In this document: piece after piece, positions 14,583 to 48,839 of the stretch
How the letters are laid out: each line of letters begins with the position of its first letter
Numbering within the stretch: position 1 is the first letter of the stretch
NCBI RefSeq assembly: GCF_963665445.1
Contig: NZ_OY762276.1
Coordinates: forward strand, 1,396,001 to 1,460,000
DNA: 64,000 bases
Direction of reading: 5' to 3'
Source of the DNA: an uncultured Desulfobulbus sp.
Lineage (GTDB): Bacteria > Desulfobacterota > Desulfobulbia > Desulfobulbales > Desulfobulbaceae
Notes under the pieces: generated by a model
What the model saw: the letters and a program-made list of their open reading frames with translations, nothing else
Told to the model about the DNA's origin: nothing
Database searches by the model: none
Translations under genes and position numbers: made by a program

Positions 14583-15641
14583 TCACCAGGCACATGCCTG
14601 GGAGTTGAACGGGGTATAGCCGTTTATCTGTGCAAGGTTTCGTTCATTGGCCATGGTTTCCAGTTGGTTGTGGTGCTCGCCGTAAAGGTTGAGAAAAACA
14701 TCGCAGAGATCGGGATGGAACTGGGTCCCACGGTTGCGCGAGATTTCGTCCCAGGCCTGCTCCATGGTGAGGGCCGGTTTGTAGGGCCGGAATGTGGTCA
14801 TGGCGTCAAAGGCGTCGGCAATGGCGATGATGGCCGATTCCAGAGGAATTGCATCATGGCGGAGATTGTCCGGATAGCCTTTGCCGTCGAAACGTTCGTG
14901 ATGATGGCGGATGATCGTCCCCATTTTTTCAAGCCCCGGCAGGTTTTCGAAAATGGAGGCACCAATAACTGAATGCTGTTGCATGAGATAATACTCGGCC
15001 CGGGATAATTTCCCTTGGGTAAACCCCCGGCTTTGCCGGGGGACTCCAACAGTTTGACGGTTACTGGATTGCAGAAAAGAAACAATTGATTGCGTTCTTG
15101 ATCGTCTTTGTTGAGATCAACAATGCAAAGAGCATAGGCAAGAATCAACACAATTTTTTCTGATGCTTAATTCCCAGATTTCAATGAGGAATCGATCAAC
15201 GAATACCGGAGCATCAGTTTTTGCTTATACTCACACAAAACAACAAGAGTCAGAATCGAAAGATAATAGATGCGAACTCGTGATATTTTATTGCTGGATC
15301 TTGCCAACAACTTGACCACCAAGGGTGGTCAGTGGATCAGTTGCATATGCCGCTTTGAGCGGCTCCCAGTCTTTCAAGCCACCGGCTTTGCCGGTGGTCT
15401 TTGACTTTCCGGATTTCATCAATATACCCTCGGCAATGCCGATTTTGCCGATGTCGTGCAGGTGGCCGATGACATGCACATAATCGCAGTGGGTGTCGGA
15501 CATGTGCAGCCCCCGGCAAATAAGTTCAGCTATTTCCGAAACCCTGCGCGAATGACCTGCCGTGTATACATCCTTGATTTCTATGGTGCGGGTGAGGCTT
15601 TCAATAAAAAGATGAAAATCGATGTCCTTGAAGCAGGTCAT
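14583..15641 (-). pseudogene. HD-GYP domain phosphohydrolase gene split by a palindromic insertion
   Basis: The two halves of one HD-GYP (cyclic-di-GMP phosphodiesterase-type) domain are separated by about 0.4 kb. The N-terminal half (from 15641) has the first helices, the HSRRVSEIAE region and the metal motif GHLHDIGKIGIAEGILM. The C-terminal half resumes with LSRAEYYLMQQH and contains HHHERFDGKGYPD, the GYP signature, and IAIADAFDAMTTFRPY. Joining ...KSGK directly to LSRAEYYLM restores a normal domain of about 220 residues. As it stands, the reading frame runs from the first half into the insertion and stops at 15288, so the gene is probably inactive. Confidence 0.85.
15010..15405. mobile_element. 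Non-autonomous IS200/IS605-like palindromic element (PATE/MITE type)
   Basis: About 396 bp inserted in the HD-GYP gene. Both ends carry near-identical hairpins with the same loop: CCCCCGGC-TTT-GCCGGGGG (15024-15042) and CCACCGGC-TTT-GCCGGTGG (15379-15397). Two further hairpins lie near the second end, at 15314-15330 (GACCACC/GGTGGTC) and 15349-15363 (GCCGC/GCGGC). No transposase frame lies inside, and no target duplication is obvious. Subterminal palindromes and absence of a duplication are typical of IS200/IS605 elements. The boundaries are inferred from restoring the host frame and may be off by a few bases. Confidence 0.72.
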
Positions 15642-21390: not shown

Positions 21391-21628
21391 ACAATATTGA
21401 TGAATGAAAGCGCGTTTGAAATGTCCTGTTTTTTAATGCACTGCATTTATTAGGTATTTTTAAGCATTTCTTTTTCACGCGGTAAACGCCGCCTTGGGAA
21501 AGGCCGCTGGATGGAGCAACGGAACGGGTAGTGCTGGTCATAGATTGCTCGTATCAGTATTTTTTATTGTACCATGGGGCCGGTTGCCTGCAATCGGTTT
21601 GGGATAAAAGCGAGTGGGTGAAAAAACT

Positions 21629-23713
21629 ATGAGTGAGACCAAGTATAGCATTTGCGGCATGTGCGCCGTTCGATGTCCCGTAACCGTGCAGGTGGAGGAG
21701 GGAACCCCCGTATGGATTGAGGGCAACAGCAATGACGGTGGCATGGGGCACAGCCTCTGTGCCAAGGGGGCAGCCGCATTTGCCCAGCGCGACGATAAAC
21801 AGCGTCCCACCTCGCCGATGCTTCGTGTGGGGGAGCGCGGCGAAGGCAAATGGCGCGAGGTCTCCTGGGATGAAGCCTACGATTTCATCGCCGGAAAGTT
21901 GGGGAAGATCATCGAAGAGCACGGCGCCCGCGCCATCATGTTCTCCGACCGCGGAGGTCCCTTTGCAGATTTGCGCAAGGCCTTTGTCAAGGCCCTCGGG
22001 TCACCCAACTACATCAATCACGACTGTACCTGCGGCCGAAATGTCCATCATGCGGCTAAATCCCTTTACGGTCTGGGCCGCAAGGATTTTGCCTATGATT
22101 ATGAAAACGCCAAACATATCGTTCTGTTCGGGCGCAACATCACCGAGGCCCTCAAGGTCAAAGAGGTAAAAAGCTTCCTCAAAGGGATCAAGAATGGAGC
22201 GCATGTGACCTACATCGATCCACGCGCATCGGTAACCGCAGGAAAGGCCACCCGTTATTGGCAGAACAGGCCTGGCAGCGATTACGCCCTGCTCTTGGGC
22301 ATCGCCAACTGTCTGGTCAACAACCGCTACTACGACAAGGCCTTTGCCGACCGGTACATCAACGGCATGAAGGAGTTCAAAGCCTTTCTTGCGCCCTACA
22401 CGCCCCAGTGGGCCTCCGTTGAATCCGGAATTCCCGCCGAGGAGATCGAGGCCTTCTGTCGCGAACTCAATCAGGATCGGCCCAAGGTGATCATCCATCC
22501 AGGCTGGATGCTCGCCCGCTATCGGGATTCCTTCTACGCCTCGCGCATGATCCACATCCTCAATGCCCTCATGGGCAGCATCGAGCAGCCCGGCGGCTTG
22601 TACTATCCCAAAGGCCCCAAGGATGCGGGTCGTTCCGGACTCAAGAGTCTGGGAGCCCTGGTTCCAGGAGTGGATGAGGAGCGCGCCGATGGTTGCGGCA
22701 CCCGCTATCCGCAGTGGGACAAGGGGGCCGGCATGCTGCAGACCGCCTATGCGGCCATCGAAACCGGCGAGCCCTACCCGCTCAAGGCCTACTTCATTCA
22801 TCGCCACGACCCCTTTATCGCCCTGCCCGATACGAACGAGCAGCAGCGTATCTTCAACAGGCTGGAGCTGATTGTCGCGGTTGATATCAACTTCAGCGAG
22901 ACCGCCTGGTTTGCCGACGTCATCCTTCCGGAGAACACCTTTCTCGAGCGGGCCTCCATCCTTCGCACCGAAAAGGGGCTCAAACCGGGATTCGGTCGCC
23001 GCGAGCAGTGTGTGCCGCCGCTCAACAACACCAAGGCCGGATGGGAGATCTACATCGATATCGCCCGCCGCATGGGCAAAGGCGAATACTTCCCCTTCAA
23101 CACCATCGAGGATATCTGGGCCTATCAGTTGCAAGAGACCGGTGTTTCGATCAGTGATTTCGATGCCAAGGGCTTTGTCAAACTCTCAGATGATGCAATC
23201 TGGTTCGATCGGGAGAACCTGAAATTTGGCACTGATTCCGGTAAAATTGAAATCTTCAACGAGAAGTGGGAGGCTATGGGGGTGCCCTCATTCATTCCTT
23301 ACGAGGCACCCGAGGCGCCACCCGAGGGCAGTTTTCGCCTCCTGTTCGGCCGCAACGGGTACCAGGCCCATGGGCAGCATCAGAACAACCCCCTGCTCAA
23401 TGACCTGTTGATGGAAAATAAACTGTGGATAAACACTCAGGCAGCCAAAAAATTGGGGATAAAGGACGGTGCACGGGTTATGGTGGTCAACGGTGATGAA
23501 CAGGGCACCATCACCGCCTATGTGACCGACCTCATCCACCCCGAAGCAGTCTTCATGCTCCACGGATTTGGTACCCGCGTACCTGCCAAAAAGCGGGCCT
23601 TTGGCAAGGGCCTGGCGGATCAACTCTTCATGAAGGGAAAGCTCAAGGAGTGGGACAAGGCCGGTGGAGGTTTGAACCTTGCTGAAAGTTTTGTCACCGT
23701 TACCCTTGCTTAA
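21629..23713 (+). CDS. Molybdopterin oxidoreductase, cytoplasmic, PhsA/PsrA-like catalytic subunit
   Basis: A 694-residue DMSO-reductase-family enzyme. Residues C9, C12, C16 and C44 form a [4Fe-4S] motif (CGMCAVRCP...LCAKG). GSPNYINHDCTCGRN (about 124-138) holds the likely Mo ligand, C135 by spacing, and the C-terminal MopB binding domain ends the protein. There is no Tat signal, unlike PhsA/PsrA, so it should act in the cytoplasm. The ligand Cys is not followed by His as in formate dehydrogenases. It heads an operon with a ferredoxin subunit and eleven nuo genes. The ATG at 21629 is preferred over a GTG 15 bp upstream. The substrate is unknown. Confidence 0.88.
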   Translation: MSETKYSICGMCAVRCPVTVQVEEGTPVWIEGNSNDGGMGHSLCAKGAAAFAQRDDKQRPTSPMLRVGERGEGKWREVSWDEAYDFIAGKLGKIIEEHGARAIMFSDRGGPFADLRKAFVKALGSPNYINHDCTCGRNVHHAAKSLYGLGRKDFAYDYENAKHIVLFGRNITEALKVKEVKSFLKGIKNGAHVTYIDPRASVTAGKATRYWQNRPGSDYALLLGIANCLVNNRYYDKAFADRYINGMKEFKAFLAPYTPQWASVESGIPAEEIEAFCRELNQDRPKVIIHPGWMLARYRDSFYASRMIHILNALMGSIEQPGGLYYPKGPKDAGRSGLKSLGALVPGVDEERADGCGTRYPQWDKGAGMLQTAYAAIETGEPYPLKAYFIHRHDPFIALPDTNEQQRIFNRLELIVAVDINFSETAWFADVILPENTFLERASILRTEKGLKPGFGRREQCVPPLNNTKAGWEIYIDIARRMGKGEYFPFNTIEDIWAYQLQETGVSISDFDAKGFVKLSDDAIWFDRENLKFGTDSGKIEIFNEKWEAMGVPSFIPYEAPEAPPEGSFRLLFGRNGYQAHGQHQNNPLLNDLLMENKLWINTQAAKKLGIKDGARVMVVNGDEQGTITAYVTDLIHPEAVFMLHGFGTRVPAKKRAFGKGLADQLFMKGKLKEWDKAGGGLNLAESFVTVTLA

Positions 23714-23730
23714 CCGGAAGGAGAGTTGAA

Positions 23731-24237
23731 ATGAGCAAATATCTTATCGTTCAGGACATTGCCGACTGTATCGGCTGCCGTGCCTGTGAAGTCCACTGCA
23801 GATCAAAGAACAAACCCGGCCCCGGCGCCTTTTATTGCCGCATGATCAAGGTCGCCACCGCCGACCAGCCGACCCCGAAAATCAATTTTGTCTACCTTTC
23901 CTGCTTTCACTGCGAAAAGGCCTGGTGCATCGATGCCTGCCCCACCGGGGCCATGCGCCGACGCGAAAAGGACGGCATCGTCTATGTCGATGAGAAATCC
24001 TGTGTAGGCTGCAAGGCCTGCATCACCGCCTGTCCCTGGACCGTTCCCCAGTGGAATGCCGAAACCGGCAAGGTCGGCAAATGCGATCTTTGCATGGACC
24101 GCATCGATCAAGGGTTGGAACCGGCCTGTGTCACCAAGTGTGTCACCAAATGTCTCCACTTTACCACCCCCTCAGAGGCATCAGAGACTGCCCGTCAAGC
24201 CTATGCCGAGCAGTTGATGGAAAATCGCCGCTCATAG
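23731..24237 (+). CDS. Four-cluster [4Fe-4S] ferredoxin subunit (DmsB/PsrB-like)
   Basis: A 168-residue electron-transfer subunit with sixteen cluster cysteines in four motifs: CIGCRACEVHC, CFHCEKAWCIDACP, CVGCKACITACP and CDLC...CVTKCVTKC. This is the layout of the iron-sulfur subunits that accompany molybdopterin enzymes. It follows the Mo subunit by 17 bp with a strong GGAGAG ribosome binding site and precedes nuoA by 12 bp. No signal peptide is seen. It is the natural candidate to pass electrons between the Mo subunit and the NuoI/NuoB clusters. Confidence 0.92.
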   Translation: MSKYLIVQDIADCIGCRACEVHCRSKNKPGPGAFYCRMIKVATADQPTPKINFVYLSCFHCEKAWCIDACPTGAMRRREKDGIVYVDEKSCVGCKACITACPWTVPQWNAETGKVGKCDLCMDRIDQGLEPACVTKCVTKCLHFTTPSEASETARQAYAEQLMENRRS

Positions 24238-24249
24238 GAGTACCATGTG

Positions 24250-24618
24250 ATGGATGCACTGCCCAAGGAGTATCTCGGCATACTGCTCTTGCTGATCTTT
24301 GGCGTCTTATTCGGTGTGCTCACCCTGCTTATAGGACGGTTTTTCCGTCTGAGCCGGCCGTATAAGGAAAAACTGATCGCCTATGAGTCGGGAAATGAGC
24401 CGACCGAGGCCCCGCGGATGCGATTTTCGGTCAAGTTCTACCTGATCGCCATCCTGTTCGTGGTTTTCGATGTCGAGGCCATCTATCTCTACCCCTGGGC
24501 TGTGAGCTACGATCGAATGGGACTGTTCGCCCTGGTGGAGATGCTTTTTTTTATTGCGCTTTTGCTGGTGGGCTACGTCTATGCCTGGAAAAAAGGAGTG
24601 CTGCAATGGGAGAAATAA
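24250..24618 (+). CDS. nuoA: NADH-quinone oxidoreductase subunit A
   Basis: A 122-residue membrane subunit of complex I with three transmembrane helices. The conserved loop [31 protein letters not shown] contains the family's E-x-G and RFSVKFY signature, followed by [15 protein letters not shown]. The ATG at 24250 is chosen; a GTG one codon upstream is equally close to the AGGAG ribosome binding site. It overlaps nuoB by 13 bp. Confidence 0.95.
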
Positions 24619-25127
24619 AGGATCCGACCATGGTCCAGTTGGAGGAGGGGGTTCGCTTCATCCCCGGCGCCAACGCCCTGCTCGGCCCATTGAACAAACT
24701 GGTGAACTGGGGGCGTTCCGGCTCCATCTGGCCGGTAACCTTCGGACTGGCCTGCTGCGCCATCGAGATGATGGATGCCGGTGCCTCCACCAACGACCTC
24801 GACCGGTTCGGCATCCTCTTCCGCGCCAGCCCACGCCAGGCCGACTGCATGGTGGTGGCCGGAACCCTGACCAAGAAGATGGCCCCGGTTCTCCGCCGGG
24901 TCTACGACCAGATGCCTGAACCGCGATACGTGCTCGCCATGGGCAGCTGCGCCTGCAGCGGCGGGGTGTTCGACACCTATGCCGTCACCCAAGGCGTCGA
25001 TCAGATCATTCCAGTGGATGTCTATGTCCCCGGATGCCCGCCCCGGCCCGAGGCCCTGCTTGAGGGGTTCCTCAAACTCCAGGAAAAAATTCAACAGGAG
25101 CAGTTTCGATGGAGCCAGTGGCGATAA
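24606..25127 (+). CDS. nuoB: NADH-quinone oxidoreductase subunit B
   Basis: A 173-residue peripheral subunit that carries cluster N2, the last iron-sulfur centre before quinone. The ligand motifs are intact: the tandem cysteines in [11 protein letters not shown], the cysteine in [11 protein letters not shown], and CPP in [20 protein letters not shown] is also conserved. It overlaps nuoA and nuoC, showing tight translational coupling. Confidence 0.96.
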
Positions 25128-25690
25128 TCGACCGGATCAAAGCCGAATTTCCAGGCGAGTTCATAGAGAGTTACGTCAACCAGGGCCAGGGTGCGGTGAT
25201 TGTCCGCGGTGGTCAGATTGTCGATCTACTCCGCTGGCTGCGCGACGACAAGGCGATGCAGATGAACCACCTGCGTTCGCTCTGCGGGGTGGATAATGCC
25301 CGGCGCAAGGCCCCCGGCCTTTCCCGGTTCGAGGTGGTCTACAACCTCTACTCCATTGGACTGCGCCATGAGATCCGCATCCGTGCCGAGGTCGGCGACA
25401 AGGAACCCGCGATCGACTCGGTGGTCGAACTCTGGGCAGGGGCCGACTGGCTTGAGCGCGAAACCTTTGATCTGATGGGCATTGTCTTCAACAATCATCC
25501 GGATCTCCGCCGGGTGCTGCTGCCCGAAGACTGGGTCGGTCATCCCCTGCGTAAGGAATATCCCCTCAAGGGAAAAGAGGAGTGGTCCGGTATGACCGAG
25601 TTGTTGACCAAGGTCCAGCAACTGGATCAGCATGGATTTGACCCCGAGGGGCATAAACACGGACAGTACGATCCCCGAGAGGAGGAGTGA
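25109..25690 (+). CDS. nuoC: NADH-quinone oxidoreductase subunit C
   Basis: A 193-residue 30-kDa-type subunit of the peripheral arm. The family signature is present as [17 protein letters not shown]...[25 protein letters not shown]. It is separate from nuoD, unlike the fused NuoCD of enterobacteria. It overlaps nuoB by 19 bp and nuoD by 4 bp. Confidence 0.95.
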
Positions 25691-26916
25691 TGAGCCGGCC
25701 GATTTGCAAAACCATTGAAGTCCCGGTTATTGACGGCGAGAGCGAGCGATACTCCCTGCGTCTGGGGCCGCAGCATCCGGCTACCCATGGCGTCCTCAGG
25801 GTTGATCTCGAACTCGACGGCGAGACCATCCTCGAATGCAATCCGCAGGTGGGCTATCTCCACCGCGGTTTCGAAAAACTGGCCGAGAGCAAAACCTACG
25901 CTCAGGCCCTGATCCTCACCGATCGCCTGGACTACATCGCCGCCATGTCCAACAACATTGGATACTGCGTGGCTGTGGAGAAGCTGCTCGCCATCTCCGT
26001 ACCCCAGCGTGCTCAATACATCCGCACCATTGTCGGTGAGATGTCGCGTCTTTGCTCGCATCTACTGTGGCTAGCCACCCATGCCCTGGATATCGGGGCC
26101 ATGACCGTCTTTCTCTACTGCTTCCGCGAGCGCGAAATTCTGCTGGATCTGTTTGAGGAACTCTGCGGCGCCCGCCTGACTTTTTCCTATCCGCGTATCG
26201 GCGGCGTGCGCCAGGATGTAAGCCGATACTTCGTGGACGAGCTGCAGCGCTTTCTCGATATCTTTCCCGCCAAGATGGACGAGTACGAGACCCTGATCGA
26301 TACCAACCGCATCTGGCTCAAGCGAACCGTCGGCATCGGCAAACTCACTGGCGAGCAAGCACTGGCCCTGGGCCTGACCGGCGCCTGCCTGCGCGGCTCG
26401 GGCGTTGATTACGATATCCGCAAGCACCAACCCTACGACGCCTACGACAAGGTGGAATTCGAGGTTCCGCTGGCCACCGAGGGGGATATCTATGCCCGTT
26501 ATCGCTGCCGCATGGAGGAGATGCATCAGTCGGTGCGCATCATCCAGCAGTGCATCGATCAGCTCCCTCCCGGGACGATCTTCGGCGCCGATGCGCCCGA
26601 TCTGGTGATGCCGTTCAAGGCTCCGGCCCGGGTGGAGGCCCAGGCCGGGAACTATGGCGGTGGTCTGATCAAGCTCATCCGCGATCGAAATCTCTACATC
26701 TCCGGCGATGTCTATGTGGCCACCGAGGTCCCCAAGGGGGAGCTGGGATTCTACTTCATCTCCGACGGCAACAACCGGCCCTACCGAATGCATATCCGCT
26801 CCCCATCCTTCATCCACATCAGTTCGCTCAAGACCCTGTGCAAGGGGGAACTGATCGCGGATCTGATCGCCAATATCGGCAGCCTGGATGTGGTCTTGGG
26901 TGAGTCCGACCGGTGA
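25687..26916 (+). CDS. nuoD: NADH-quinone oxidoreductase subunit D
   Basis: A 409-residue 49-kDa-type subunit that forms part of the quinone-binding cavity. Conserved RLGPQHPATHGVLRV near the N-terminus, YLHRGFEK, and the C-terminal ISSLKTLCKGELIADLIANIGSLDVVLGESDR are all present. The NiFe-ligand cysteines of related hydrogenases are absent, so it is a true complex-I type subunit and not a membrane hydrogenase. Confidence 0.96.
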   Translation: MMSRPICKTIEVPVIDGESERYSLRLGPQHPATHGVLRVDLELDGETILECNPQVGYLHRGFEKLAESKTYAQALILTDRLDYIAAMSNNIGYCVAVEKLLAISVPQRAQYIRTIVGEMSRLCSHLLWLATHALDIGAMTVFLYCFREREILLDLFEELCGARLTFSYPRIGGVRQDVSRYFVDELQRFLDIFPAKMDEYETLIDTNRIWLKRTVGIGKLTGEQALALGLTGACLRGSGVDYDIRKHQPYDAYDKVEFEVPLATEGDIYARYRCRMEEMHQSVRIIQQCIDQLPPGTIFGADAPDLVMPFKAPARVEAQAGNYGGGLIKLIRDRNLYISGDVYVATEVPKGELGFYFISDGNNRPYRMHIRSPSFIHISSLKTLCKGELIADLIANIGSLDVVLGESDR

Positions 26917-26980
26917 ACCGGCAAGGTTGCGTCAGCCTCCGACACCGTGCCCCTGTCCCTGTTTGTGAACGAGGAATTCT

Positions 26981-27949
26981 ATGAATATCATCATGTTGCT
27001 GGTCTGGATCCTGATCCTCTTTGCCGTGGTCATGCTCCATGTCGCCTATGCAACCTACGTTGAACGCAAGGTCATCGGCCATATGCAGGTTCGTTTGGGG
27101 CCGATGCGCGTCGGCTGGCATGGCCTGCTCCAGCCGATCGCCGATGGGGTGAAGTCCTTTTTCAAGGAGGACATCATTCCGGAAAATGCCGACAAGGCCA
27201 CCTTTCTCGCCGCACCGATCATCTGTTTGGTGGCGATGATGACGTCGCTGGCGGTCCTGCCCTTTGCCAAGGGCTGGGTCCTGGCGGATATCGACATCGG
27301 CCTGCTCTTCATCTTTGCCATGAGCTCGCTCTCCTCCTACGGCGTTGTTCTCGCAGGTTGGGCCTCCAACTCGAAGTACAGTTTTCTCGGTGGCCTGCGC
27401 TCCATGGCCCAGGTCATCAGCTATGAGATCAGCATGGGGTTGAGCTTGGTCGGGGTCATGCTCATGGCCGGCTCGCTCAACCTGAGCAAGATCGTCGAGG
27501 CGCAGGGGGATTCCTTCCTGGGCATGTATCTCATGCCCCAGTGCATCGGTTTTTTTGTGTTTTTCATCAGCATGCTCGCTGAGACCAACCGCGTGCCCTT
27601 CGACCTGCCCGAGGCCGAAACCGAACTGGTTTCCGGCTACTGCACCGAATACAGCGGCATGCGTTACGCCATCTTCTTCATGGCCGAGTACATCGGCATG
27701 ATGGTCATGGCCTCGATCGCCACCATCTGCTATCTCGGCGGCTGGAACGGCCCCTTTGCGGTCCCGTTTTTCCCGCCGCTGTGGTTCGTGCTCAAGGTCT
27801 ACCTGTTCATGTTCCTCTTTATCTGGATTCGAGCCACTCTGCCGCGATATCGCTACGATCAGCTGATGGACCTGGGCTGGAAGCTGCTTATCCCGCTGGC
27901 GTTGGCCAATATTGTCCTCACCGCCTGTTTCCGGGCCATCCTGAGTTAA
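26981..27949 (+). CDS. nuoH: NADH-quinone oxidoreductase subunit H
   Basis: A 322-residue membrane subunit (ND1 type) with about eight helices, which joins the peripheral and membrane arms. It contains the conserved YVERKVIGHMQVRLGP, EYSGMRYAIFFMAEY and LPEAETELVSGY motifs of the quinone site. A 64-bp gap separates it from nuoD, the first spot where nuoE, nuoF and nuoG would normally lie; they are absent. Confidence 0.96.
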   Translation: MNIIMLLVWILILFAVVMLHVAYATYVERKVIGHMQVRLGPMRVGWHGLLQPIADGVKSFFKEDIIPENADKATFLAAPIICLVAMMTSLAVLPFAKGWVLADIDIGLLFIFAMSSLSSYGVVLAGWASNSKYSFLGGLRSMAQVISYEISMGLSLVGVMLMAGSLNLSKIVEAQGDSFLGMYLMPQCIGFFVFFISMLAETNRVPFDLPEAETELVSGYCTEYSGMRYAIFFMAEYIGMMVMASIATICYLGGWNGPFAVPFFPPLWFVLKVYLFMFLFIWIRATLPRYRYDQLMDLGWKLLIPLALANIVLTACFRAILS

Positions 27950-27970
27950 GAGGGAAGGGGGATACAAACA

Positions 27971-28609
27971 ATGTACGTGCATTACAAACCAAAGCGCGGT
28001 CTGTGGGGAACCATCTTTCAGGTGGAGATTCTCCAGGGCATGGCCCTGACCCTCAAGCGTCTTTTTTCCAAACCCATCACCCGCCAGTATCCCGAGGTCA
28101 AGCCTACGATTCGGCAGGGGTTCCGTGGCCAGCACGCCCTGGTGCGTGATCCGGAGACCGGGGACTGCAAATGCATCGGCTGTATGCGCTGTGCCATGGC
28201 CTGCCCCTCGCGCTGTATCCGCATCCGTTCCCACAAGGACAAGGAACCGGGAAGCCGCCGGGTGATAGACAACTACGTCATTGATGCGTTGCGTTGCGTC
28301 TACTGCGGCTACTGCGAGGAGGTCTGCCCGGTGAACGCGATCGTCCTCACCGAGGTCTACGAGTACGGTTGTTTTGATCGTCCTTCGCTCACTTTCACCC
28401 GCGAACAGCTGTTGGCCAACTGGGACCGATTTGTCGAGGAGAAAGGGGCTGAGATGGAAAATTACGTCAACCCCTTCTGGCGACCGCGCGGGGTTGCCGA
28501 GGCGGATCTGCCCGCCCCCAAGCGTCTTCCTGTCTCTGCGGAGTGGCGCGGCGAGGACCAGGTCGTTGGCCGGAAATGGCGGCAGGCAAACCCTGCTCAA
28601 AAAGACTGA
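27971..28609 (+). CDS. nuoI: NADH-quinone oxidoreductase subunit I
   Basis: A 212-residue iron-sulfur subunit with two 4Fe-4S motifs, CIGCMRCAMACPSRC and CVYCGYCEEVCP, that bind clusters N6a and N6b. They relay electrons from the input module to NuoB. The C-terminal tail of about 60 residues is longer than in E. coli and is Arg/Pro rich. In this operon the electron donor to NuoI is likely the Mo/ferredoxin pair rather than NuoG. Confidence 0.95.
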   Translation: MYVHYKPKRGLWGTIFQVEILQGMALTLKRLFSKPITRQYPEVKPTIRQGFRGQHALVRDPETGDCKCIGCMRCAMACPSRCIRIRSHKDKEPGSRRVIDNYVIDALRCVYCGYCEEVCPVNAIVLTEVYEYGCFDRPSLTFTREQLLANWDRFVEEKGAEMENYVNPFWRPRGVAEADLPAPKRLPVSAEWRGEDQVVGRKWRQANPAQKD

Positions 28610-28624
28610 ACGGAGAGGATATCC

Positions 28625-29203
28625 ATGTTTCTTCAGTTGTTTTTCATCTACTGCGCCTTGATGATCGTCGCCAGCGGCCTTCTTGCCATCAGTCTGCGCA
28701 ACCCGGTTCACTGTGTGCTCATGGTCCTGGTGCTCTTCTTCCATATGGCCGGGCTCTATCTGACCTTGAACGCGGAATTTCTCGCCGCGGTGCAGATCAT
28801 TGTCTATGCCGGCGCTGTCCTGGTGCTCTACCTCTTTGTCCTCTTTCTCGTCAGTCTGCGCGAAGAGCTGCACATGGATGCCTTCATGCCCAGTCCCTGG
28901 TTGGGGCGGGCCATAGCCAGCGGCCTGGCCCTTGGCCTGCTCTCTGCGCTCCCGTCCTTCACCCCCGGGGCCAAGGGCACCTGGAGCGTCGAGGCGGTCC
29001 GCGAGTTGACCCATACCGTGGTCATGGGGCAGGAGATGTACTCCACCTACCTCCTGCCCTTTGAGATCGCCGGTCTTATCCTGCTGGTTGCCCTCCTTGG
29101 CGGCCTGGTGCTTGCCCGTCGCGACGAAGGGTATCCGGTCGAGACCCAGGAGTCCCTAACAGGCGAATCCGACAGTCTTGCCTGCGAGGAGGTCAGCCGA
29201 TGA
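28625..29203 (+). CDS. nuoJ: NADH-quinone oxidoreductase subunit J
   Basis: A 192-residue ND6-type membrane subunit with five predicted helices. Conserved parts include SLRNPVHCVLMVLVLFFHMAG and the AEFLAAVQIIVYAGAVLVLYLF region containing the pi-bulge helix. It overlaps nuoK by 4 bp. Confidence 0.94.
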   Translation: MFLQLFFIYCALMIVASGLLAISLRNPVHCVLMVLVLFFHMAGLYLTLNAEFLAAVQIIVYAGAVLVLYLFVLFLVSLREELHMDAFMPSPWLGRAIASGLALGLLSALPSFTPGAKGTWSVEAVRELTHTVVMGQEMYSTYLLPFEIAGLILLVALLGGLVLARRDEGYPVETQESLTGESDSLACEEVSR

Positions 29204-29502
29204 TTCCCCTTTCCTGGTACATGGCCCTGGCCATCGTTCTCTTCTCCATCGGGGTCTGCGGCTTTCTCACCCGGCGCAACGTGATCATCATGTTTCTCTC
29301 GCTGGAGCTGATGCTCAACGGGGTGAACCTGAACCTGGTGGCCCTCAGTCACTTTATGGACAGTGTCCGCGGACAGGCGTTCACCTTCTTCATCATCACC
29401 GTTGCCGCTGCCGAGGCTGCCATCGGGTTGGGGATTGCCATATCGCTCTACCGCAACCGCCGTTCGGTCCACGTCGATTCTCTGAACCAACTCAAAGGAT
29501 AA
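29200..29502 (+). CDS. nuoK: NADH-quinone oxidoreductase subunit K
   Basis: A 100-residue ND4L-type membrane subunit with three helices. The proton-path glutamates are in FLSLELMLNGVNLNLV and in ITVAAAEAAIGLGIAI. It overlaps nuoJ and is followed by nuoL after 4 bp. Confidence 0.95.
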   Translation: MIPLSWYMALAIVLFSIGVCGFLTRRNVIIMFLSLELMLNGVNLNLVALSHFMDSVRGQAFTFFIITVAAAEAAIGLGIAISLYRNRRSVHVDSLNQLKG

Positions 29503-29506
29503 GCAT

Positions 29507-31429
29507 ATGCCAGCCTCACTGCTTGCCATTCCCTTTTTGCCGCTGGCCTCCTTCGTTATCACCCTCCTGTTCGGGAAACGGATGGGGGCCAGGGCCCACT
29601 GGCTGCCGATCATCACGGTGCTGCTCTCCTTTTGCTGCGCCCTGATCGCCTTCAACCGGGTGCGGTCCGGGGAGATTATCAACCAGGATATCTATACCTG
29701 GATCCAATCCGGGAATTTGAGTGTCTCAGTCGGTTTTCTCGTCGATCAGTTGACTGCGGTGATGCTGATCGTTGTCACCAGCATCAGTTCTCTGGTCCAC
29801 ATCTATTCCGTGGGCTACATGAAGGGCGAGGACGGCTACTCCCGGTTTTTTGCCTATCTGAGCCTGTTTACCTTCTCCATGCTGATGTTGGTCCTGGGCA
29901 ACAACTTCCTCCAACTCTTTTTTGGTTGGGAGGCGGTGGGGCTTTCCTCGTACCTGCTGATCGGCTTTTATTACACCAAGAAGTCCGCCGCGGATGCGGG
30001 CAAAAAGGCCTTCATCGTCAACCGGTTCGGTGACTTCGGCTTTATTCTCGGTCTCTTTCTCGTCTTTACCGAGTTCGGCAGCCTGCACTACACCGAGGTT
30101 TTCGGCAAGCTTGGGATGCTTGAAGGGCAGACCGTGTCCTTTTTGGGCGCACCCATCGGCATAGCCACGGTGATCGCGCTGCTGCTCTTTTGCGGCGCTA
30201 TCGGTAAATCGGCGCAGATCCCACTCCATGTCTGGTTGCCGGATGCCATGGAAGGTCCGACTCCGGTCAGTGCCCTGATCCATGCCGCCACCATGGTCAC
30301 CGCCGGTGTTTTTTTGATCGCCCGCTGCCACCCGATCTTCGAACTCTCCCCCTTCACCCTCAACCTGATCACCATTCTCGCGGCCATCACCACCCTCTTT
30401 GCCGCGACCATCGCCCTGGTGCAGACCGACATCAAGCGGGTGGTTGCCTACTCCACGGTCAGCCAGTTGGCCTACATGTTCATCGGCTGCGGCGTGGGTG
30501 CCTACTCGGCCGGTGTCTTTCACCTTTTCACCCATGCCTACTTCAAGGCGCTGCTCTTCCTGGGCTGCGGCTCGGTCATTCTCGGCATGCACCACGAGCA
30601 GGATGTGCGCTTCATGGGCGGACTCAAGCAAAAGATGCCCATCACCTATTGGACCTTCCTCCTGGCCTCGCTCTCCATCTCCGGTATCCCCGGTTTGGCC
30701 GGATTTTTCAGTAAGGACGAGATTCTGCTCATGGCCTTCAACAGCCATCTGGCGGCCGGCAAGTTTGCCTGGTTTATTGGCACCCTGGTGGCCTTTATGA
30801 CCGCCTTTTACTCGTTCCGCCTCTTCTTCCTCATCTTTCACGGGGAGTTCCGCGGGAGTGAGCATCAACGCGAGCATCTCCACGAATCGTCTGCCGTGGT
30901 CACCATCCCGCTCATGCTGCTGGCCGTTGGCGCAGTGGCCGCCGGCTGGTTCGGTATCCCCGCGATCCTTGGCGGTGAAAATCACTGGGCCCATTTCCTT
31001 GCCCCTGTCCTTGGTCATCCCCATGTGGAGGTGTCCCATGGCACCGAGGCCCTGTTGATGGGGACCTCGATTCTTGCCGGTGTCCTGGGGATCGGCCTGG
31101 CATTTTTTTTCTATCGATTGCAGCCGCAGATTCCCACTGCCCTGGCAACGCGGTTTGCCGGCATCTACCAGTTGCTGCTCAACAAGTACTATGTGGACGA
31201 GTTGTACGGCAAGATTATCGTTGAACCGACCCTGACCTTCAGCCGGAGGGTTATCCTTAAGATCATCGACATCGGCGGTATCGAAGGCGTGGTGAACGGG
31301 CTGCCGCGTCTAATCGGCAACGGTTCGCAACAACTGCGTAAGATCCAGGACGGCCAAGTCTCCCATTATCTCGCCTGGATGGGCGGCGGTGCCCTGGTGG
31401 TCCTGGTGGTTTTGCTTATCGGCAATTAG
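29507..31429 (+). CDS. nuoL: NADH-quinone oxidoreductase subunit L
   Basis: A 640-residue antiporter-like subunit with about sixteen helices and the long lateral helix at the C-terminus. The proton-channel residues are visible in FFGWEAVGLSSYLLIGF, HVWLPDAMEGPTPVSALIHAATMV and TDIKRVVAYSTVSQLAYM. Full length for the family. Confidence 0.95.
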   Translation: MPASLLAIPFLPLASFVITLLFGKRMGARAHWLPIITVLLSFCCALIAFNRVRSGEIINQDIYTWIQSGNLSVSVGFLVDQLTAVMLIVVTSISSLVHIYSVGYMKGEDGYSRFFAYLSLFTFSMLMLVLGNNFLQLFFGWEAVGLSSYLLIGFYYTKKSAADAGKKAFIVNRFGDFGFILGLFLVFTEFGSLHYTEVFGKLGMLEGQTVSFLGAPIGIATVIALLLFCGAIGKSAQIPLHVWLPDAMEGPTPVSALIHAATMVTAGVFLIARCHPIFELSPFTLNLITILAAITTLFAATIALVQTDIKRVVAYSTVSQLAYMFIGCGVGAYSAGVFHLFTHAYFKALLFLGCGSVILGMHHEQDVRFMGGLKQKMPITYWTFLLASLSISGIPGLAGFFSKDEILLMAFNSHLAAGKFAWFIGTLVAFMTAFYSFRLFFLIFHGEFRGSEHQREHLHESSAVVTIPLMLLAVGAVAAGWFGIPAILGGENHWAHFLAPVLGHPHVEVSHGTEALLMGTSILAGVLGIGLAFFFYRLQPQIPTALATRFAGIYQLLLNKYYVDELYGKIIVEPTLTFSRRVILKIIDIGGIEGVVNGLPRLIGNGSQQLRKIQDGQVSHYLAWMGGGALVVLVVLLIGN

Positions 31430-31535
31430 AAATCCGTATCTGCCCGACCTGTAGAAAGGGAAAATGCGCTTTGCCCGGGAATAAAAAAGACGGCAAAACG
31501 ATCTTCATTCAACACACCCAATCCGTGAGCGCCAA

Positions 31536-33050
31536 ATGTCCATACCTTTGCTCAGCACTCTGATTTTCTTTCCGGTCCTTGGCGGCCTGTCGCTGTTGGC
31601 CATTCCCAGGCAGCAGACAGCCACCATCAGGCTGATGGCCCTGTTCATCAGCCTGATCGAACTCGGTCTGACCCTGCCGGTGGCCCTGATGTTTGACAAG
31701 ACCACCCACGCAATGCAGTTCGTCGAGCACCATCCATGGATCAGTGAACTCAATATCAACTATTCCCTGGGGATAGATGGCATCTCGGTGCTCTTTCTCC
31801 TCCTCACCGGGCTGATCATGGTGCTCTCCATCCTTGTTTCCTGGGAGTCGATTACCACCAAGGTGCATGAATTTTTTGTGGCCATGCTCCTGCTCGAGGG
31901 AGCGATGATGGGTGTTTTCTGCGCCACCGACCTCTTCCTCTTCTACATCTTCTGGGAGGCCATGCTCATCCCGATGTTTCTCATCATCGGTATCTGGGGC
32001 GGCCCCAACCGTATTTACGCCACGGTCAAGTTTTTCCTCTACACCCTGGTGGGCAGTTTGCTTATGCTGGTCGGGATCATCCTGCTCTACCAGAACGGTG
32101 GCCAGAGTTTTGATCTGATCAAGCTGGCCGGACAGCACTATTCCCTCAAACTGCAGTTGATTCTTTTCTGGGCCTTTTTTGCCGCCTTTGCGGTCAAGGT
32201 GCCGATGTGGCCGGTGCACACCTGGCTGCCCGACGCCCATACCGAGGCACCCGCCGCAGGCTCGGTCATCCTTGCCGGGGTGTTGATCAAGATGGGCGCT
32301 TACGGGTTCTTGCGCTTCTCCCTGCCCATCCTCCCCGACGCCACCCAGCAGATGCTGATGCCGATGCTGGTGCTCTCGGTGATCGCCATCGTCTACGGTG
32401 CCATTATCTGTCTGGCCCAGAGCGACCTTAAACGGCTCATTGCCTACAGCTCGGTGAGCCACATGGGCTTTGTCACCCTTGGGCTTTTTGCCATAAACCA
32501 GCGCGGCCTCGAAGGCGCGATCCTGCAGATGATCAACCACGGCATCGTCACCGGTGCCCTCTTTCTTGCCATCGGTATGATCTACGAGCGGACCCATACC
32601 CGCAAAATCGAGGATTACAGCGGCCTGGCCTCGACCATGCCGGTCTTTGCCGGATTTTTTCTCTTTTTTACCCTGGCCGCGGTCGGTCTGCCCGGCACCA
32701 ACGGATTTATCGGTGAGTTTCTCATCCTCCTCGGCGGCTTCGAGCGTCAGCCCTGGGTCGCGGTGATCTCGGCCTCCGGCCTCATTCTCGGTGCCTGGTA
32801 TATGCTCTGGCTCTACCAGCGCATCTTTTTCAACGAGGTCAAGGCGTCCATGCAGGGGCTGTTGCAACTCAACCTGCGGGAAATCCTCACCCTGGTGCCC
32901 ATGGTTCTGCTCATCCTCTGGATCGGGCTCTATCCCAACGCACTGCTCGGCTTCATGCACGCCTCGGTCAGCCACCTGATCGATCAGGTGCAGGGGGGAT
33001 CAGCCCTGGCCGGTTCTGTGCTGTCCGCGACTCTGCCGCTCAACCCCTAA
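31536..33050 (+). CDS. nuoM: NADH-quinone oxidoreductase subunit M
   Basis: A 504-residue antiporter-like subunit. Conserved FYIFWEAMLIPMFLIIGIWGG, HTWLPDAHTEAPAAGSVILAG and SDLKRLIAYSSVSHMGFV carry the channel Glu, Lys and Asp residues. It follows nuoL after a 106-bp gap with no gene, probably still within the same transcript. Confidence 0.95.
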   Translation: MSIPLLSTLIFFPVLGGLSLLAIPRQQTATIRLMALFISLIELGLTLPVALMFDKTTHAMQFVEHHPWISELNINYSLGIDGISVLFLLLTGLIMVLSILVSWESITTKVHEFFVAMLLLEGAMMGVFCATDLFLFYIFWEAMLIPMFLIIGIWGGPNRIYATVKFFLYTLVGSLLMLVGIILLYQNGGQSFDLIKLAGQHYSLKLQLILFWAFFAAFAVKVPMWPVHTWLPDAHTEAPAAGSVILAGVLIKMGAYGFLRFSLPILPDATQQMLMPMLVLSVIAIVYGAIICLAQSDLKRLIAYSSVSHMGFVTLGLFAINQRGLEGAILQMINHGIVTGALFLAIGMIYERTHTRKIEDYSGLASTMPVFAGFFLFFTLAAVGLPGTNGFIGEFLILLGGFERQPWVAVISASGLILGAWYMLWLYQRIFFNEVKASMQGLLQLNLREILTLVPMVLLILWIGLYPNALLGFMHASVSHLIDQVQGGSALAGSVLSATLPLNP

Positions 33051-33101
33051 GCGGGTTTACACCATGATTTTCCGCCTCTCTGTGCATAAGGAGCAAATGT
33101 A

Positions 33102-34544
33102 ATGACAACTGCGGCTATTCAATGGACCGCTATGGAGCCCATCCTTCCGGAACTGTTGCTGGTTGGCATTGCGGTCATGCTGATCGGCTGTGATCTCTTT
33201 CTTCCCCGTCAGCGGCAGCTGCTGCCCTGGTTGACCGTGGTCGGCTCTCTGGCCGCCCTGGTCATGGTGCTGGGCGCCCAACCAGCCACCGGCTTTGGCG
33301 GCATGTTCGTCATTGACGGCTTTGCAACGATCTTCAAGACCATCTGCATCGGAGCAGTTATCCTCACCGCCTTGATGAGTGAGCATTTCTGCACTCTCAT
33401 CGGTCTGCGCCAGGGTGAGTATTACTCCCTGATGGTGCTGTCGCTGGTGGGCATGATGCTGATGGCCTCAGCCGGTGATCTGATGGTGCTCTACCTCGGC
33501 CTGGAGTTGATGGCCCTGCCTATCTATGCCCTGGTCGGGTTGCACAAGAGGGACGGTCGTGCCAGCGAGGCGGCGATCAAATACTTTCTCATGGGCGGAT
33601 TTGCCTCGGCCCTTCTGCTCTTTGGCTTCTCGCTCGTTTTCGGGCTTTCCGGGACCACCAACATTGGCGAGATTGCCGCGGCTGTTTCCACGGGCAATCT
33701 GAGCACAAGTCCGGCCCTCCTCGCGGCCCTTGGCCTGATCATCGCCGGTTTTTCCTTCAAGGTTGCCGCTGCACCCTTTCATCTCTGGACGCCCGATGTC
33801 TATGAGGGTGCGCCGACTGTTGTCACCGCCTTTATGTCGGTCGGTCCCAAGGCAGCCGGTTTCGCCATCTTCGGCCGGGTGCTTTTTCTTGGGCTTTCCG
33901 GCCTGCAGACTCACTGGGGACCGATTCTTGCGGTCTTGGCCCTGTTGACCATGGCTGTGGGCAACATTACCGCGCTGAGTCAGACGAGCCTCAAACGAAT
34001 GCTCGCCTACTCCTCCATCGCCCACGCCGGATATGCCCTGCTCGGTCTGCTTGCCGGAACCACCGAGGGAATGGCCGCCACCATGACCTACCTTGTGGTC
34101 TATCTGTTCATGAACCTCGGCGCCTTTGCCATTCTCATGGCTCTGGCCCAGCCCGGCAAGAGCTGTGAATCCCTGGAGGATTGCAGGGGATTGGCTGCGC
34201 GTAACCCGCTGGCCGCCGCCCTGATGCTCGTTTTCCTCTTCAGCCTCACCGGCATTCCCCCGACCGGTGGATTTATCGGCAAATTTTACCTGCTGAAATC
34301 GGCTTTCGTTGCCGGTTACAGCCTGATCGTGGTTGCAGCGGTGATTTTTTCCGCCATCTCGGCCTACTTTTACCTGCGGGTCGTACGCTATATGTACATG
34401 AACGATCCCCGGGATGAGGCGGCAGTGGTGTTGGTACCAGGGATGAAGGTGGCCCTGGGCGTGTGTTTTTTGGGCGTGCTTGGACTGGGATTTTTTCCCG
34501 GGACCTTGGTGAACTGGACGGTGGGTGCTTTGACGGGTATGTGA
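33102..34544 (+). CDS. nuoN: NADH-quinone oxidoreductase subunit N
   Basis: A 480-residue antiporter-like subunit closing the operon. It shows LYLGLELMALPIYALVG, FHLWTPDVYEGAPTVVTAFMS and QTSLKRMLAYSSIAHAGYALLG. The gene ends 76 bp before the convergent parC. No nuoE, nuoF or nuoG gene occurs in the window. Confidence 0.95.
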   Translation: MTTAAIQWTAMEPILPELLLVGIAVMLIGCDLFLPRQRQLLPWLTVVGSLAALVMVLGAQPATGFGGMFVIDGFATIFKTICIGAVILTALMSEHFCTLIGLRQGEYYSLMVLSLVGMMLMASAGDLMVLYLGLELMALPIYALVGLHKRDGRASEAAIKYFLMGGFASALLLFGFSLVFGLSGTTNIGEIAAAVSTGNLSTSPALLAALGLIIAGFSFKVAAAPFHLWTPDVYEGAPTVVTAFMSVGPKAAGFAIFGRVLFLGLSGLQTHWGPILAVLALLTMAVGNITALSQTSLKRMLAYSSIAHAGYALLGLLAGTTEGMAATMTYLVVYLFMNLGAFAILMALAQPGKSCESLEDCRGLAARNPLAAALMLVFLFSLTGIPPTGGFIGKFYLLKSAFVAGYSLIVVAAVIFSAISAYFYLRVVRYMYMNDPRDEAAVVLVPGMKVALGVCFLGVLGLGFFPGTLVNWTVGALTGM

Positions 34545-44581: not shown

Positions 44582-46030
44582 CTAGCGAAAATTGGCCGCC
44601 TGCTCTCCAAGGCGGGCAAGGATCTTTTGCAGGGCAACCCTTGAAAGACCTGACAGGCGGGCCGCTTCGGAAATGTTTCCTTTGGTCAACGGCAGGAGAT
44701 CCTTCAGATATTGACGGGTAAAGGCATCCATCACCGCGGCCTTGGCCTCCTTGTAGGGCATCAAGGCCTCTTCCTGGGGTGCCGACAGGGACATGGGGGC
44801 TGGCAAGGCGTTGCCCATCACCAGGCGCACCAGGGCCATGTCGATCCGGTCGGTGCCGGCAAAGACTGTCAAGCGGCGAACCAGATTCTGCAACTCGCGC
44901 ACATTGCCCGGCCAGGGCAGGGTGGACATCCACTGCAACACCTCCGGCAGGAGTTCTTTTTCATTCACCCCAATTTCCCGGCAGGTACGGCGAAGAAAAA
45001 AGTTGGCCAGCAGGGGGATGTCTTCGATACGATCCCGAAGCGGAGGCAGGGTGAGCGAAAGGACATTGAGACGGTAATAGAGGTCTTCGCGAAAGCCGTT
45101 ATCCGCAATGCACGCTTCCAAATTCTGGTTGGTGGAGGCTAGAATGCGCACATTGACGGTGCTGGCCGTGTGTGCGCCGAGCGGTCGAACCTCGCCGTCC
45201 TCAAGGAAGCGGAGCAGTTTGGTCTGCACCCCAGGGCTGATGTCGCCGATCTCGTCCAGGTGGATGGTGCCGGTATCTGCTGCGGTAAGCAGTCCCTTGT
45301 GATCCTGGTGGGCACCGGTAAAGGCTCCGCGTTTATAGCCGAAAAGCTCGCTTTCCAGAAGATTTTCCGGAATCGATGGGCAGTTGACGGCAAGAAAGGG
45401 CTGCTTCAGCCGGGATCCGAGTCGGTGGATGAGCCGGGCCGCCAACTCCTTGCCCGTACCGGACTCGCCGCGAATGAGCACGGTGTAGTCGGCCTGGGCC
45501 ACCGCGGCGATGGACCGCCTGAGTTGCTGCATGGCGCTCGACTCGCCCACCAGTTCGTTCTGGGCATCCTGCTGGGACAGAATTAACCGCAGGCGGTTGT
45601 TTTCCGCAAGCAGCCGGCTTCGCTCCACCCCCTTTTCGACGACGCGAAAGAGCTGGTCCGGCTCGATGGGTTTGGTGAGGAAGTCATAGGCGCCGGCGCG
45701 CAGGGCCTCGACCGCGGTTTCAATCGATCCATAGGCACTGAGCACCACGATGCTCAGGTCGGTCTGCCGTTTGAGCGCCTCCTTCAAGAGCTGCATGCCG
45801 TTCATCTCCGGCATACGCAGATCCGTCACCAGGAGATGGACCGGATGGAGCGCCAGGGCCTTGAGGGCTGACGTGCCGTTGTTGACTGCCTCTACCTGGA
45901 TGTCTGGAAAACGGCGAGCAAGAAGCCGGGCGAGGCCGCGGGCAAAATCCGGCTGGTCATCGACCAGGAGAACGCGGAAGTCGGTGTCTGCGAGCTTTAT
46001 GTCCGAATTCTGGGCAACGTCGGTGATCAT
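44582..46030 (-). CDS. Sigma-54-dependent response regulator (NtrC family)
   Basis: About 482 residues: receiver (VLLVDDQPDFARGL, phospho-Asp in LLVTDLRMPEMNG, Lys in FLTKPIEP), AAA+ domain with Walker A GESGTGKE, sigma-54 loop GAFTGA and Walker B LDEIGD, and a Fis-type HTH (ISEAARLSGLSRVALQKIL). The start at 46030 overlaps the stop codon of the sensor kinase gene upstream, so they are a translationally coupled pair. It probably controls the transporter operon to which it belongs. Confidence 0.93.
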   Translation of the reverse strand: MITDVAQNSDIKLADTDFRVLLVDDQPDFARGLARLLARRFPDIQVEAVNNGTSALKALALHPVHLLVTDLRMPEMNGMQLLKEALKRQTDLSIVVLSAYGSIETAVEALRAGAYDFLTKPIEPDQLFRVVEKGVERSRLLAENNRLRLILSQQDAQNELVGESSAMQQLRRSIAAVAQADYTVLIRGESGTGKELAARLIHRLGSRLKQPFLAVNCPSIPENLLESELFGYKRGAFTGAHQDHKGLLTAADTGTIHLDEIGDISPGVQTKLLRFLEDGEVRPLGAHTASTVNVRILASTNQNLEACIADNGFREDLYYRLNVLSLTLPPLRDRIEDIPLLANFFLRRTCREIGVNEKELLPEVLQWMSTLPWPGNVRELQNLVRRLTVFAGTDRIDMALVRLVMGNALPAPMSLSAPQEEALMPYKEAKAAVMDAFTRQYLKDLLPLTKGNISEAARLSGLSRVALQKILARLGEQAANFR

Positions 46031-48456: not shown

Positions 48457-48553
48457 GACTCAGGTCGGTACCGGTCAGTGGGGCAGGGGTACCGACCATC
48501 GGTGGTACGTTGCAATCACAGGAGTGGGTGTGTGTGGAGGCCTTGCTCAAAGC

Positions 48554-48787
48554 TCAATGAGCATCGATCGCAGCGCGGATATATCTCTCCGATTCCTTCA
48601 CCTGTTCCACATCGGTGTAGTAATACCGGGTCGGGTCGATGCCGTTGTTGTCCAGATAGACCGACATGCGGTGGAGAATCGGGCAGGCATCGGTCAGCAT
48701 GGGCAAAAGCACATAGATAAAGACCATCAGCGATCCAAGGGTGAGCACGAAGTTGCGAAGGCGGATGGGGAAACTTTTTGGGTTCAT
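48554..48787 (-). CDS. Small single-pass membrane protein of the YeiH/kinase cluster
   Basis: A 77-residue protein, not recognised. One helix (NFVLTLGSLMVFIYVLLPMLT) is followed by a soluble tail of about 45 residues containing DACPILHRM and two tyrosine-rich stretches (RYYYTD). It lies 52 bp downstream of the putative sulfate exporter and 97 bp upstream of the heme kinase, all on one strand. The position suggests an accessory of the transporter or the sensor. Confidence 0.65.
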   Translation of the reverse strand: MNPKSFPIRLRNFVLTLGSLMVFIYVLLPMLTDACPILHRMSVYLDNNGIDPTRYYYTDVEQVKESERYIRAAIDAH

Positions 48788-48839
48788 GGCAATCTCCAGA
48801 ATGGCCGGGAGGAGGACTCCCGGCCAGGATGGTGCAGTT

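Follow-up and report, generated by a model that had tools for sequence, protein, structure and literature searches.

We analysed a 64,000-nt stretch of contig NZ_OY762276.1 from Desulfobulbus sp., a sulfate reducer (the window), in which 13 plus-strand genes packed at positions 21629-34544 encode a molybdenum (Mo) subunit, a four-cluster ferredoxin-like subunit (FeSB) and NuoABCDHIJKLMN. The explanation that we favour, and to which we give a probability of about 60% as a whole, is that these genes specify a complex I core of 11 subunits in which a cytoplasmic Mo (or tungsten) subunit of the PsrA/PhsA type, together with FeSB, takes the place of the NADH module. A first-pass annotation of this DNA had proposed that the Mo-ferredoxin pair is the input module in place of NuoEFG; linkage of FeSB to Nuo, exchange of Mo subunits and a C-terminal tail on NuoI support that proposal, whereas physical assembly and the direction of electron flow we infer.

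Exchange of Mo subunits on an FeSB-Nuo chassis

The first-pass annotation had suggested comparing neighbourhoods across the phylum, and the comparison bears out the arrangement. We surveyed 297 genomes, scoring up to three Mo candidates per genome and leaving out partial matches at contig ends. A Mo match at E 1e-60 or better was present in 122 of the 297; among the full-length matches listed, a group scoring at least 626 bits (42-100% identity) was separate from a set at or below 449 bits. The direct order Mo-FeSB-nuo recurred at 19 of 83 family loci (the window included; some on short contigs). For a larger set we added 80 named loci, the best 80 of 555; removal of 12 near-copies or proteins shorter than 600 aa, and then of six outgroup rows with twin-arginine translocation (Tat) signals, reduced 170 Mo rows to 152 family loci, numbered here with the prefix L. 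Nuo linkage holds for 31 of the 152 (and for 29 of the 123 loci whose downstream sequence is 2.6 kb or longer), and all 23 loci with Mo identity of at least 55% have the direct order. NuoD proteins at least 60% identical to that of the window occur in 15 genomes, 14 of which have Mo-FeSB upstream, the fifteenth being unreadable there. A same-genus genome (G014) has the Nuo core and no Mo match; its sequence upstream of nuoA reads N, and it was counted neither way. In the nearest named relative, Desulfobulbus rhabdoformis, the Mo subunit is 87%, FeSB 93% and NuoB 97% identical.

In a FastTree phylogeny of the Mo subunit, nuo-linked members are scattered, with at least six changes of linkage. 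Loci L159 and L165 (Mo identity 50-51%) and L103 and L104 (42%) keep FeSB at 62-64% and NuoB at 79-88% identity; the values for L103 are 42% for Mo, 64% for FeSB and 85% for NuoB. Approximately unbiased (AU) tests on the Mo tree rejected joining either pair to the main nuo-linked group (p = 2.8e-72 for L159/L165; p = 3e-65 for L103/L104). In the FeSB tree, by contrast, a 14-row fork (support 95/95) comprises L159/L165, L103/L104 and 10 of the 12 main-group rows; keeping the main group apart from the two pairs was rejected (p = 0.015), whereas placing all three together was allowed (p = 0.24). Likewise, a tree of NuoB, NuoD and NuoH placed both pairs inside the main group, and keeping them apart was rejected (p = 2.4e-5). 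L165 and L159 are sisters in the Mo tree but stand at different places in the Nuo tree. Given that the Mo tree separates loci that the FeSB and Nuo trees unite, we conclude from these phylogenies that the FeSB-Nuo chassis of one lineage has received a different Mo subunit on at least two occasions. Within this main lineage, the FeSB and Nuo core trees agree in descent.

The C-terminal motif of the window NuoI, NPFWRPRG, or a close variant of it, was found at all 29 nuo-linked loci with NuoI in hand (two of the 31 linked loci, with no NuoI, were omitted, and the pattern was written after viewing the tails). The same tail is present in six of six Nuo clusters that have FeSB and no Mo gene. It was absent from all eight other NuoI proteins scored, namely those of the complete 14-subunit operon and the third nuo cluster of this genome, of L058, L060 and L202, and of three NuoF/G-bearing clusters. 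Distant Nuo cores beside a Mo-FeSB pair (L058, L060, L062, L202 and L105) have, where NuoI was seen, no tail. We conclude that, across the sequences compared, the tail accompanies the FeSB-before-nuo arrangement, with Mo present or absent. NuoI of E. coli complex I ends in an unrelated extension (residues 139-180) that is described as touching NuoG, NuoF and NuoE (PMC8357420), so by analogy a position of the tail near the input module is plausible. We read FeSB as the putative adaptor and the Mo subunit as its exchangeable head. The exchange of distantly related Mo subunits on FeSB-Nuo cores and the NuoI tail are both new in this analysis; in the paper excerpts covered by our literature search, only a small part of which was aimed at a NuoI extension, there was no report of the exchange and none of the tail. 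As a separate observation, L119, L121 and L122 carry a tandem pair of FeSB genes between Mo and nuoA.

The Mo subunit and its gene cluster

The best NCBIfam model for the Mo subunit is thiosulfate reductase PhsA (535 bits); the formate dehydrogenase model scores 231 bits (cut-off 666). The closest solved sequence is the Thermus polysulfide reductase PsrA (2vpw; 355 bits, with the runner-up at 163). A structural model built from a ten-sequence alignment has a mean predicted local distance difference test score (pLDDT) of 73.8 and a predicted template modelling score of 0.75, but is uneven: the five models range from 73.8 to 55.0 in mean pLDDT, and residues 132-135, the ligand Cys included, fall below 50, and we do not interpret the active site. 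When this model was searched with Foldseek, 2vpw gave the best E-value, with a template modelling score of 0.80 by query, a value that an ArrA chain also reaches; the predicted fold is consistent with the sequence assignment. The formate hydrogenlyase structures 7z0s and 7z0t are among both the sequence and the Foldseek matches. The predicted ligand, Cys135, is followed by Gly, as the first-pass annotation had stated. A His after the Mo-ligand Cys or selenocysteine is the mark of formate dehydrogenases; of the 84 rows in the family alignment, 83 retain the ligand Cys and none has a His after that position. A formate dehydrogenase identity was rejected on the model scores and on this ligand context.

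The first-pass annotation also placed the Mo subunit in the cytoplasm. Since the first cluster Cys is residue 9, there is no room for a Tat signal. Of the 150 family members whose N-terminus could be read (two of the 152 rows, with the N-terminus missing, were left out), none has a strict Tat motif, which all six outgroup paralogs have; a looser rule matched five of the 150, all in N-terminal extensions of longest-frame translations. By these comparisons the family is one of cytoplasmic PsrA/PhsA relatives. Known PsrABC and PhsABC enzymes have a Tat-exported catalytic subunit and an NrfD-type C subunit. The window Mo subunit gives its best sequence and structure match to PsrABC, and FeSB matches the B subunit, but the Mo subunit is predicted to be cytoplasmic and family models found no NrfD-type membrane subunit C among the 13 genes. 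A search of a plasmid collection with the Mo protein returned 1055 records, all below 60% identity, the best among the matches listed being ~32% identical to E. coli PhsA. At L105 (6951-9541), a Mo homologue beside a nuoL-L-M-N-Mo-FeSB run has lost the ligand Cys (motif FFSAN), possibly a step toward a NuoG-like non-catalytic subunit.

The substrate, which the first-pass annotation left open, is narrowed to probable sulfur chemistry of the PsrA/PhsA type. In addition to the nearest relatives, a TauE/SafE-type exporter gene lies near 56 of 151 family loci in the fetched stretch, and L101 has a rhodanese-bearing pyridine-nucleotide disulfide oxidoreductase. (The 151-locus count omits L105; neighbouring genes were grouped by single linkage, and each group took its name from a single representative.) These neighbours point to sulfur chemistry for the Mo family; only five of the 56 exporter loci are nuo-linked, making the pointer weaker for that subset.

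All 13 genes lie at the place and in the order given by the first-pass annotation (Table 1). The genes were named by family models (NCBIfam, and also Pfam for the first eight), which identified the products of nuoA to nuoK and likewise those of nuoL, nuoM and nuoN, and, again as first annotated, found no nuoE, nuoF or nuoG among the 13. The count of 16 cluster-type Cys in the ferredoxin was recovered, as was the lack of NiFe-ligand cysteines in NuoD; the Cys patterns of NuoB and NuoI are intact. An in-frame GTG at 21614 precedes the ATG of the Mo gene.

Table 1. Genes of the Mo-FeSB-nuo run, in window coordinates
Gene or product	Position	Strand	Features
Mo subunit (MoA), PsrA/PhsA-like, 694 aa, without Tat signal	21629..23713	+	FS0 [4Fe-4S] Cys9/12/16/44; Mo-ligand Cys135 (ATG numbering)
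FeSB, ferredoxin-like subunit of the DmsB/PsrB type with four clusters, proposed as Nuo adaptor	23731..24237	+	18 Cys, 16 in four-cluster pattern
nuoA	24250..24618	+	family models; GTG start at 24247 possible too
nuoB	24606..25127	+	family model; N2-cluster Cys pattern present
nuoC	25109..25690	+	family model
nuoD	25690..26916	+	family model; no NiFe-ligand motifs; GTG start at 25687 possible too
nuoH	26981..27949	+	family model
nuoI	27971..28609	+	two 4Fe-4S motifs; C-terminal extension with NPFWRPRG, proposed FeSB docking segment
nuoJ	28625..29203	+	family model
nuoK	29200..29502	+	family model
nuoL	29507..31429	+	family model
nuoM	31536..33050	+	family model
nuoN	33102..34544	+	family model

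Since four neighbouring pairs overlap (nuoA/B, nuoB/C, nuoC/D and nuoJ/K) and the intergenic spaces are short, the run is likely to be one transcription unit. The gap between Mo and FeSB is 17 bases and that between FeSB and nuoA is 9 (12 counted from the ATG); the largest, between nuoL and nuoM, is 106. Consensus scans gave no clear excess of promoter-like sites (4, versus 6.4 in shuffles) or of terminator-like sites (16, versus 13.8 in shuffles, standard deviation 3.7). Divergent genes upstream encode FeoA, FeoB, a 409-aa frame without a Pfam match and a flavodoxin, and a convergent topoisomerase gene lies downstream; none is obviously related to the run.

Two further features of the window were recorded. 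A stretch of ~168 bases (15240-15420, minus strand) has 15 genome copies at 98-100% identity, counting that of the window, and nine weaker partial copies; one copy ends a 117-aa frame (15288-15641) that is HD-domain-like by eye. At 44582-50639 (minus strand), the neighbours of a PF03601 membrane protein are a histidine kinase with a Tll0287 domain and a frame that is response-regulator-like by eye.

Competing explanations and other complex I genes

Several observations weigh against a Mo-FeSB-fed complex I. The Mo subunit scores below the NCBIfam PhsA cut-off (535 versus 694 bits), and a literature search turned up no biochemical work on any nuo-linked member. Nor does FeSB always follow Nuo, because the whole Mo-FeSB pair has been exchanged between L065/L066 and L070/L071: the Nuo cores are sisters, yet both Mo and FeSB differ, and the FeSB of L065/L066 goes with its own Mo subunit rather than with other nuo-linked FeSB. 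The L119/L120 FeSB, which is long-branched, falls outside the supported fork, and its placement is not firm. In an FeSB tree of 117 rows, support is only 81 for the fork that contains 29 linked rows, and this fork also holds L162, whose contig ends soon after, and L086, which is not linked. FeSB is short, and the groups for the AU tests were chosen after an exploratory tree. Residue 55 of FeSB is Tyr in 29 of 29 linked and Phe in 78 of 78 other proteins, a count that left out L065, L066, L162, L086, L105 and L216-L218 (L162 and L086 have Tyr); we rejected it as proof of docking since it fails in linked L065/L066 and may only reflect descent. All 19 linked genomes have dsrA, a gene that carries almost no information in this phylum. 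In Desulfolithobacter dissulfuricans, PhsA-1 was low (0.12%) and also detected in sulfate reduction, and the authors of that proteome doubt that it has a major role (PMC9751629). A Mo gene is lacking from seven Nuo clusters, all of one family, that do carry FeSB. Finally, of the 123 family loci with 2.6 kb or more of sequence downstream, 87 lack nuo or nuoEFG nearby (counting genes that are near and on the same strand, so that the divergent L058 and L060 fall among the 87), and 25 of 151 carry a GltD-like NAD(P)-type flavoprotein instead.

These last counts imply that the Mo-FeSB pair can work without Nuo. The pair might then be a soluble enzyme merely co-transcribed with an 11-subunit Nuo that is fed by free ferredoxin, which the FeSB-only Nuo clusters would also allow. 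We consider this unlikely: FeSB remains beside Nuo where Mo has been swapped, the tail of NuoI goes with FeSB, and other gene orders also put Mo or FeSB against nuo, with Mo divergent from nuoABCDHI-FeSB at L058 and L060 and a nuo...N-Mo-FeSB order at L062 and L202. A NuoEFG-like diaphorase is present at 4 of the 152 loci, and further loci show no evident partner. At the four (L095, L135, L154 and L155), members of the cytoplasmic Mo family adjoin NuoE-, NuoF- and NuoG-like diaphorase genes and not a Nuo core. At L078 (10169-13576), a 1135-aa frame downstream of Mo-FeSB fuses NuoF-type flavin mononucleotide and Fe-S domains with a GltD-like NAD(P) flavoprotein.

FeSB alone could instead be the Nuo subunit, acting as a ferredoxin-accepting module with Mo as a loosely bound, optional partner. 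Both the FeSB-nuoA-N order without Mo at seven loci, six of which were put in the Nuo tree and nest beside the Mo-bearing L119/L120 cores, and the retention of FeSB while Mo is exchanged speak for this model. In the exchanged clusters, however, the place upstream of FeSB is taken by a different Mo subunit, from which we argue that the Mo head is kept by selection, and we regard a dispensable Mo subunit as a poor prospect.

A formate dehydrogenase-type input, giving a formate:quinone oxidoreductase comparable to the FdhF-HycB arm in formate hydrogenlyase, has a solved precedent for Mo and Fe-S subunits on a complex-I-like core in the cytoplasm (7z0s/7z0t). That system has a NiFe hydrogenase and formate as substrate, whereas here NuoD lacks NiFe motifs, the core has 11 subunits and the Mo subunit is PsrA-like. 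In Thermosulfurimonas, a protein without Tat signal, TDIS_1010, whose tag is close to those of nuo (1014-1025), has been described as a formate dehydrogenase (PMC4911364), a likeness by description rather than by sequence. Both the model scores and the lack of the His in all 84 aligned rows argue against formate chemistry for this family, which we judge highly improbable.

The genome is a single 5.08-Mb contig with three nuo clusters, counting that of the window, which rules out the window operon as the only complex I. A genome-wide search for nuoEFG, proposed in the first-pass annotation, found these genes inside a complete, separate nuoABCDEFGHIJKLMN operon (L013; C1 ~823.6-837.1 kb); the window run still has none. 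A third cluster without EFG (L015; C1 ~3.148-3.160 Mb), in which nuoK was not picked up by the search, has no Mo or FeSB match within the 20 kb covered. NuoF-type domains occur at six sites, one of them inside L013. Borrowing of NuoEFG by the window core, which would make it an NADH dehydrogenase after all and would resemble Desulfurobacterium, in which an 11-gene nuo operon is presumed to function together with nuoGFE from another operon (PMC12724263), can nearly be dismissed, since the intact nuoEFG of this genome belongs to a full operon of 14 genes, of which the core is distant (NuoD 40% identical) and the NuoI has no tail. Elsewhere (L016; C1 3.885-3.898 Mb), a 508-aa NuoD-like frame with NuoB-like and NuoM-like matches is group-4-hydrogenase-like by look only.

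Published systems and proposed mechanism

The Mo-FeSB-nuo arrangement is not a novelty, since it, and the coupling idea with it, is already reported in another phylum. Thermodesulfovibrio sp. N1 (Nitrospirota) has a PsrAB-linked NuoABCDHIJKLMN (THER_0567-0582), for which coupling to sulfur compounds was suggested (PMC5165239). Gene content, not sequence, is the basis of the likeness: the parts list is the same, NuoEFG is lacking and the Mo subunit is classed as thiosulfate/polysulfide type; the excerpts of that paper contain no test of co-evolution or exchange. Closer to the window, the Desulfobulbaceae species D. dissulfuricans has consecutive tags for PhsA-1 (GF1_30490), PhsB-1 (GF1_30500), Nuo (GF1_30510) and NuoB (GF1_30520), the neighbours being read from tag numbers and names rather than sequence. 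The proteins were detected, and these two Nuo proteins, with two more of distant tags, were seen only under thiosulfate disproportionation; the authors note a missing PhsC, and the text consulted does not name Nuo as the partner (PMC9751629). 'Ca. Desulfobulbus rimicarensis' is listed with NuoABCDHIJKLM and PhsAB (PMC7117923). Nuo cores without EFG are also reported in clusters of Thermosulfurimonas (PMC4911364) and of Desulfurivibrio dismutans, in which Nuo is up in sulfur disproportionation and an unknown oxidoreductase is one suggested possibility (PMC12142623). Two further reports are only suggestive here: a mild thiosulfate fitness defect for Desulfovibrio alaskensis PhsAB (PMC4215793), and increased H2S from thiosulfate in E. 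coli with O. marinus PhsA (PMC10989961). The locus is real and correctly described, and probably functional as first annotated, although not a first sighting.

In the mechanism that we propose for a Mo-FeSB-fed complex I, FeSB would dock on NuoI and its neighbours, where the NuoG Fe-S domain would sit; in a canonical 14-subunit complex I, NuoEFG, lacking from the window cluster, are present. Electrons would pass between the Mo site, FS0, the FeSB clusters, N6a/N6b, N2 and menaquinone, and the membrane arm would couple this flow to proton pumping. With less confidence, we suggest that the substrate of the Mo site is a sulfur couple in the cytoplasm, with thiosulfate/(sulfite + sulfide) the most likely and polysulfide the next choice. 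Running forward, the complex would pump protons; run in reverse by the proton-motive force, it would reduce thiosulfate, as thiosulfate disproportionation needs. Because the thiosulfate couple is more reducing than menaquinone, thiosulfate reduction would occur only when the complex is driven backwards. The complex would also supply the quinone link missing from a PhsAB without PhsC.

Electron transfer from menaquinol to thiosulfate costs ~63 kJ/mol at standard potentials, equivalent to 4.1 H+ per two electrons at 160 mV, and ~4 H+ is the stoichiometry of complex I. Under three assumed cell conditions the calculated cost drops to ~1.5-2.9 H+. With a calculated cost of 1.5-4.1 H+ per two electrons, either direction would be thermodynamically open. 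A fuller proposal, which we hold only tentatively and think more doubtful than the replacement of the NADH module itself, is that the window represents a distinct complex I lineage, with an FeSB adaptor docked by the NuoI tail and swappable sulfur-type heads, that in reverse would serve as a proton-motive-force-driven menaquinol:thiosulfate (or polysulfide) reductase. It would then provide the step of reverse electron transport so far missing from thiosulfate disproportionation, and would be the quinone partner for PhsAB that have no PhsC.

What feeds complex I cores without NuoEFG is an acknowledged open question (PMC11238625, PMC12142623). The core discussed in PMC11238625 is likewise menaquinone-linked, without NuoEFG and of unknown donor, but the candidate donors named in its excerpts are a hydrogenase, pyruvate:ferredoxin oxidoreductase and ferredoxins, whereas here the candidate partner is encoded in the operon. 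The lineage described above thus offers a candidate electron partner inside the operon, with a catalytic subunit that is exchanged while adaptor and core are kept. The adaptor, the exchangeable head and the candidate docking tail turn the old question into a direct experiment. If the sulfur reading is true, this complex would explain how thiosulfate disproportionation powers a step more reducing than menaquinone.

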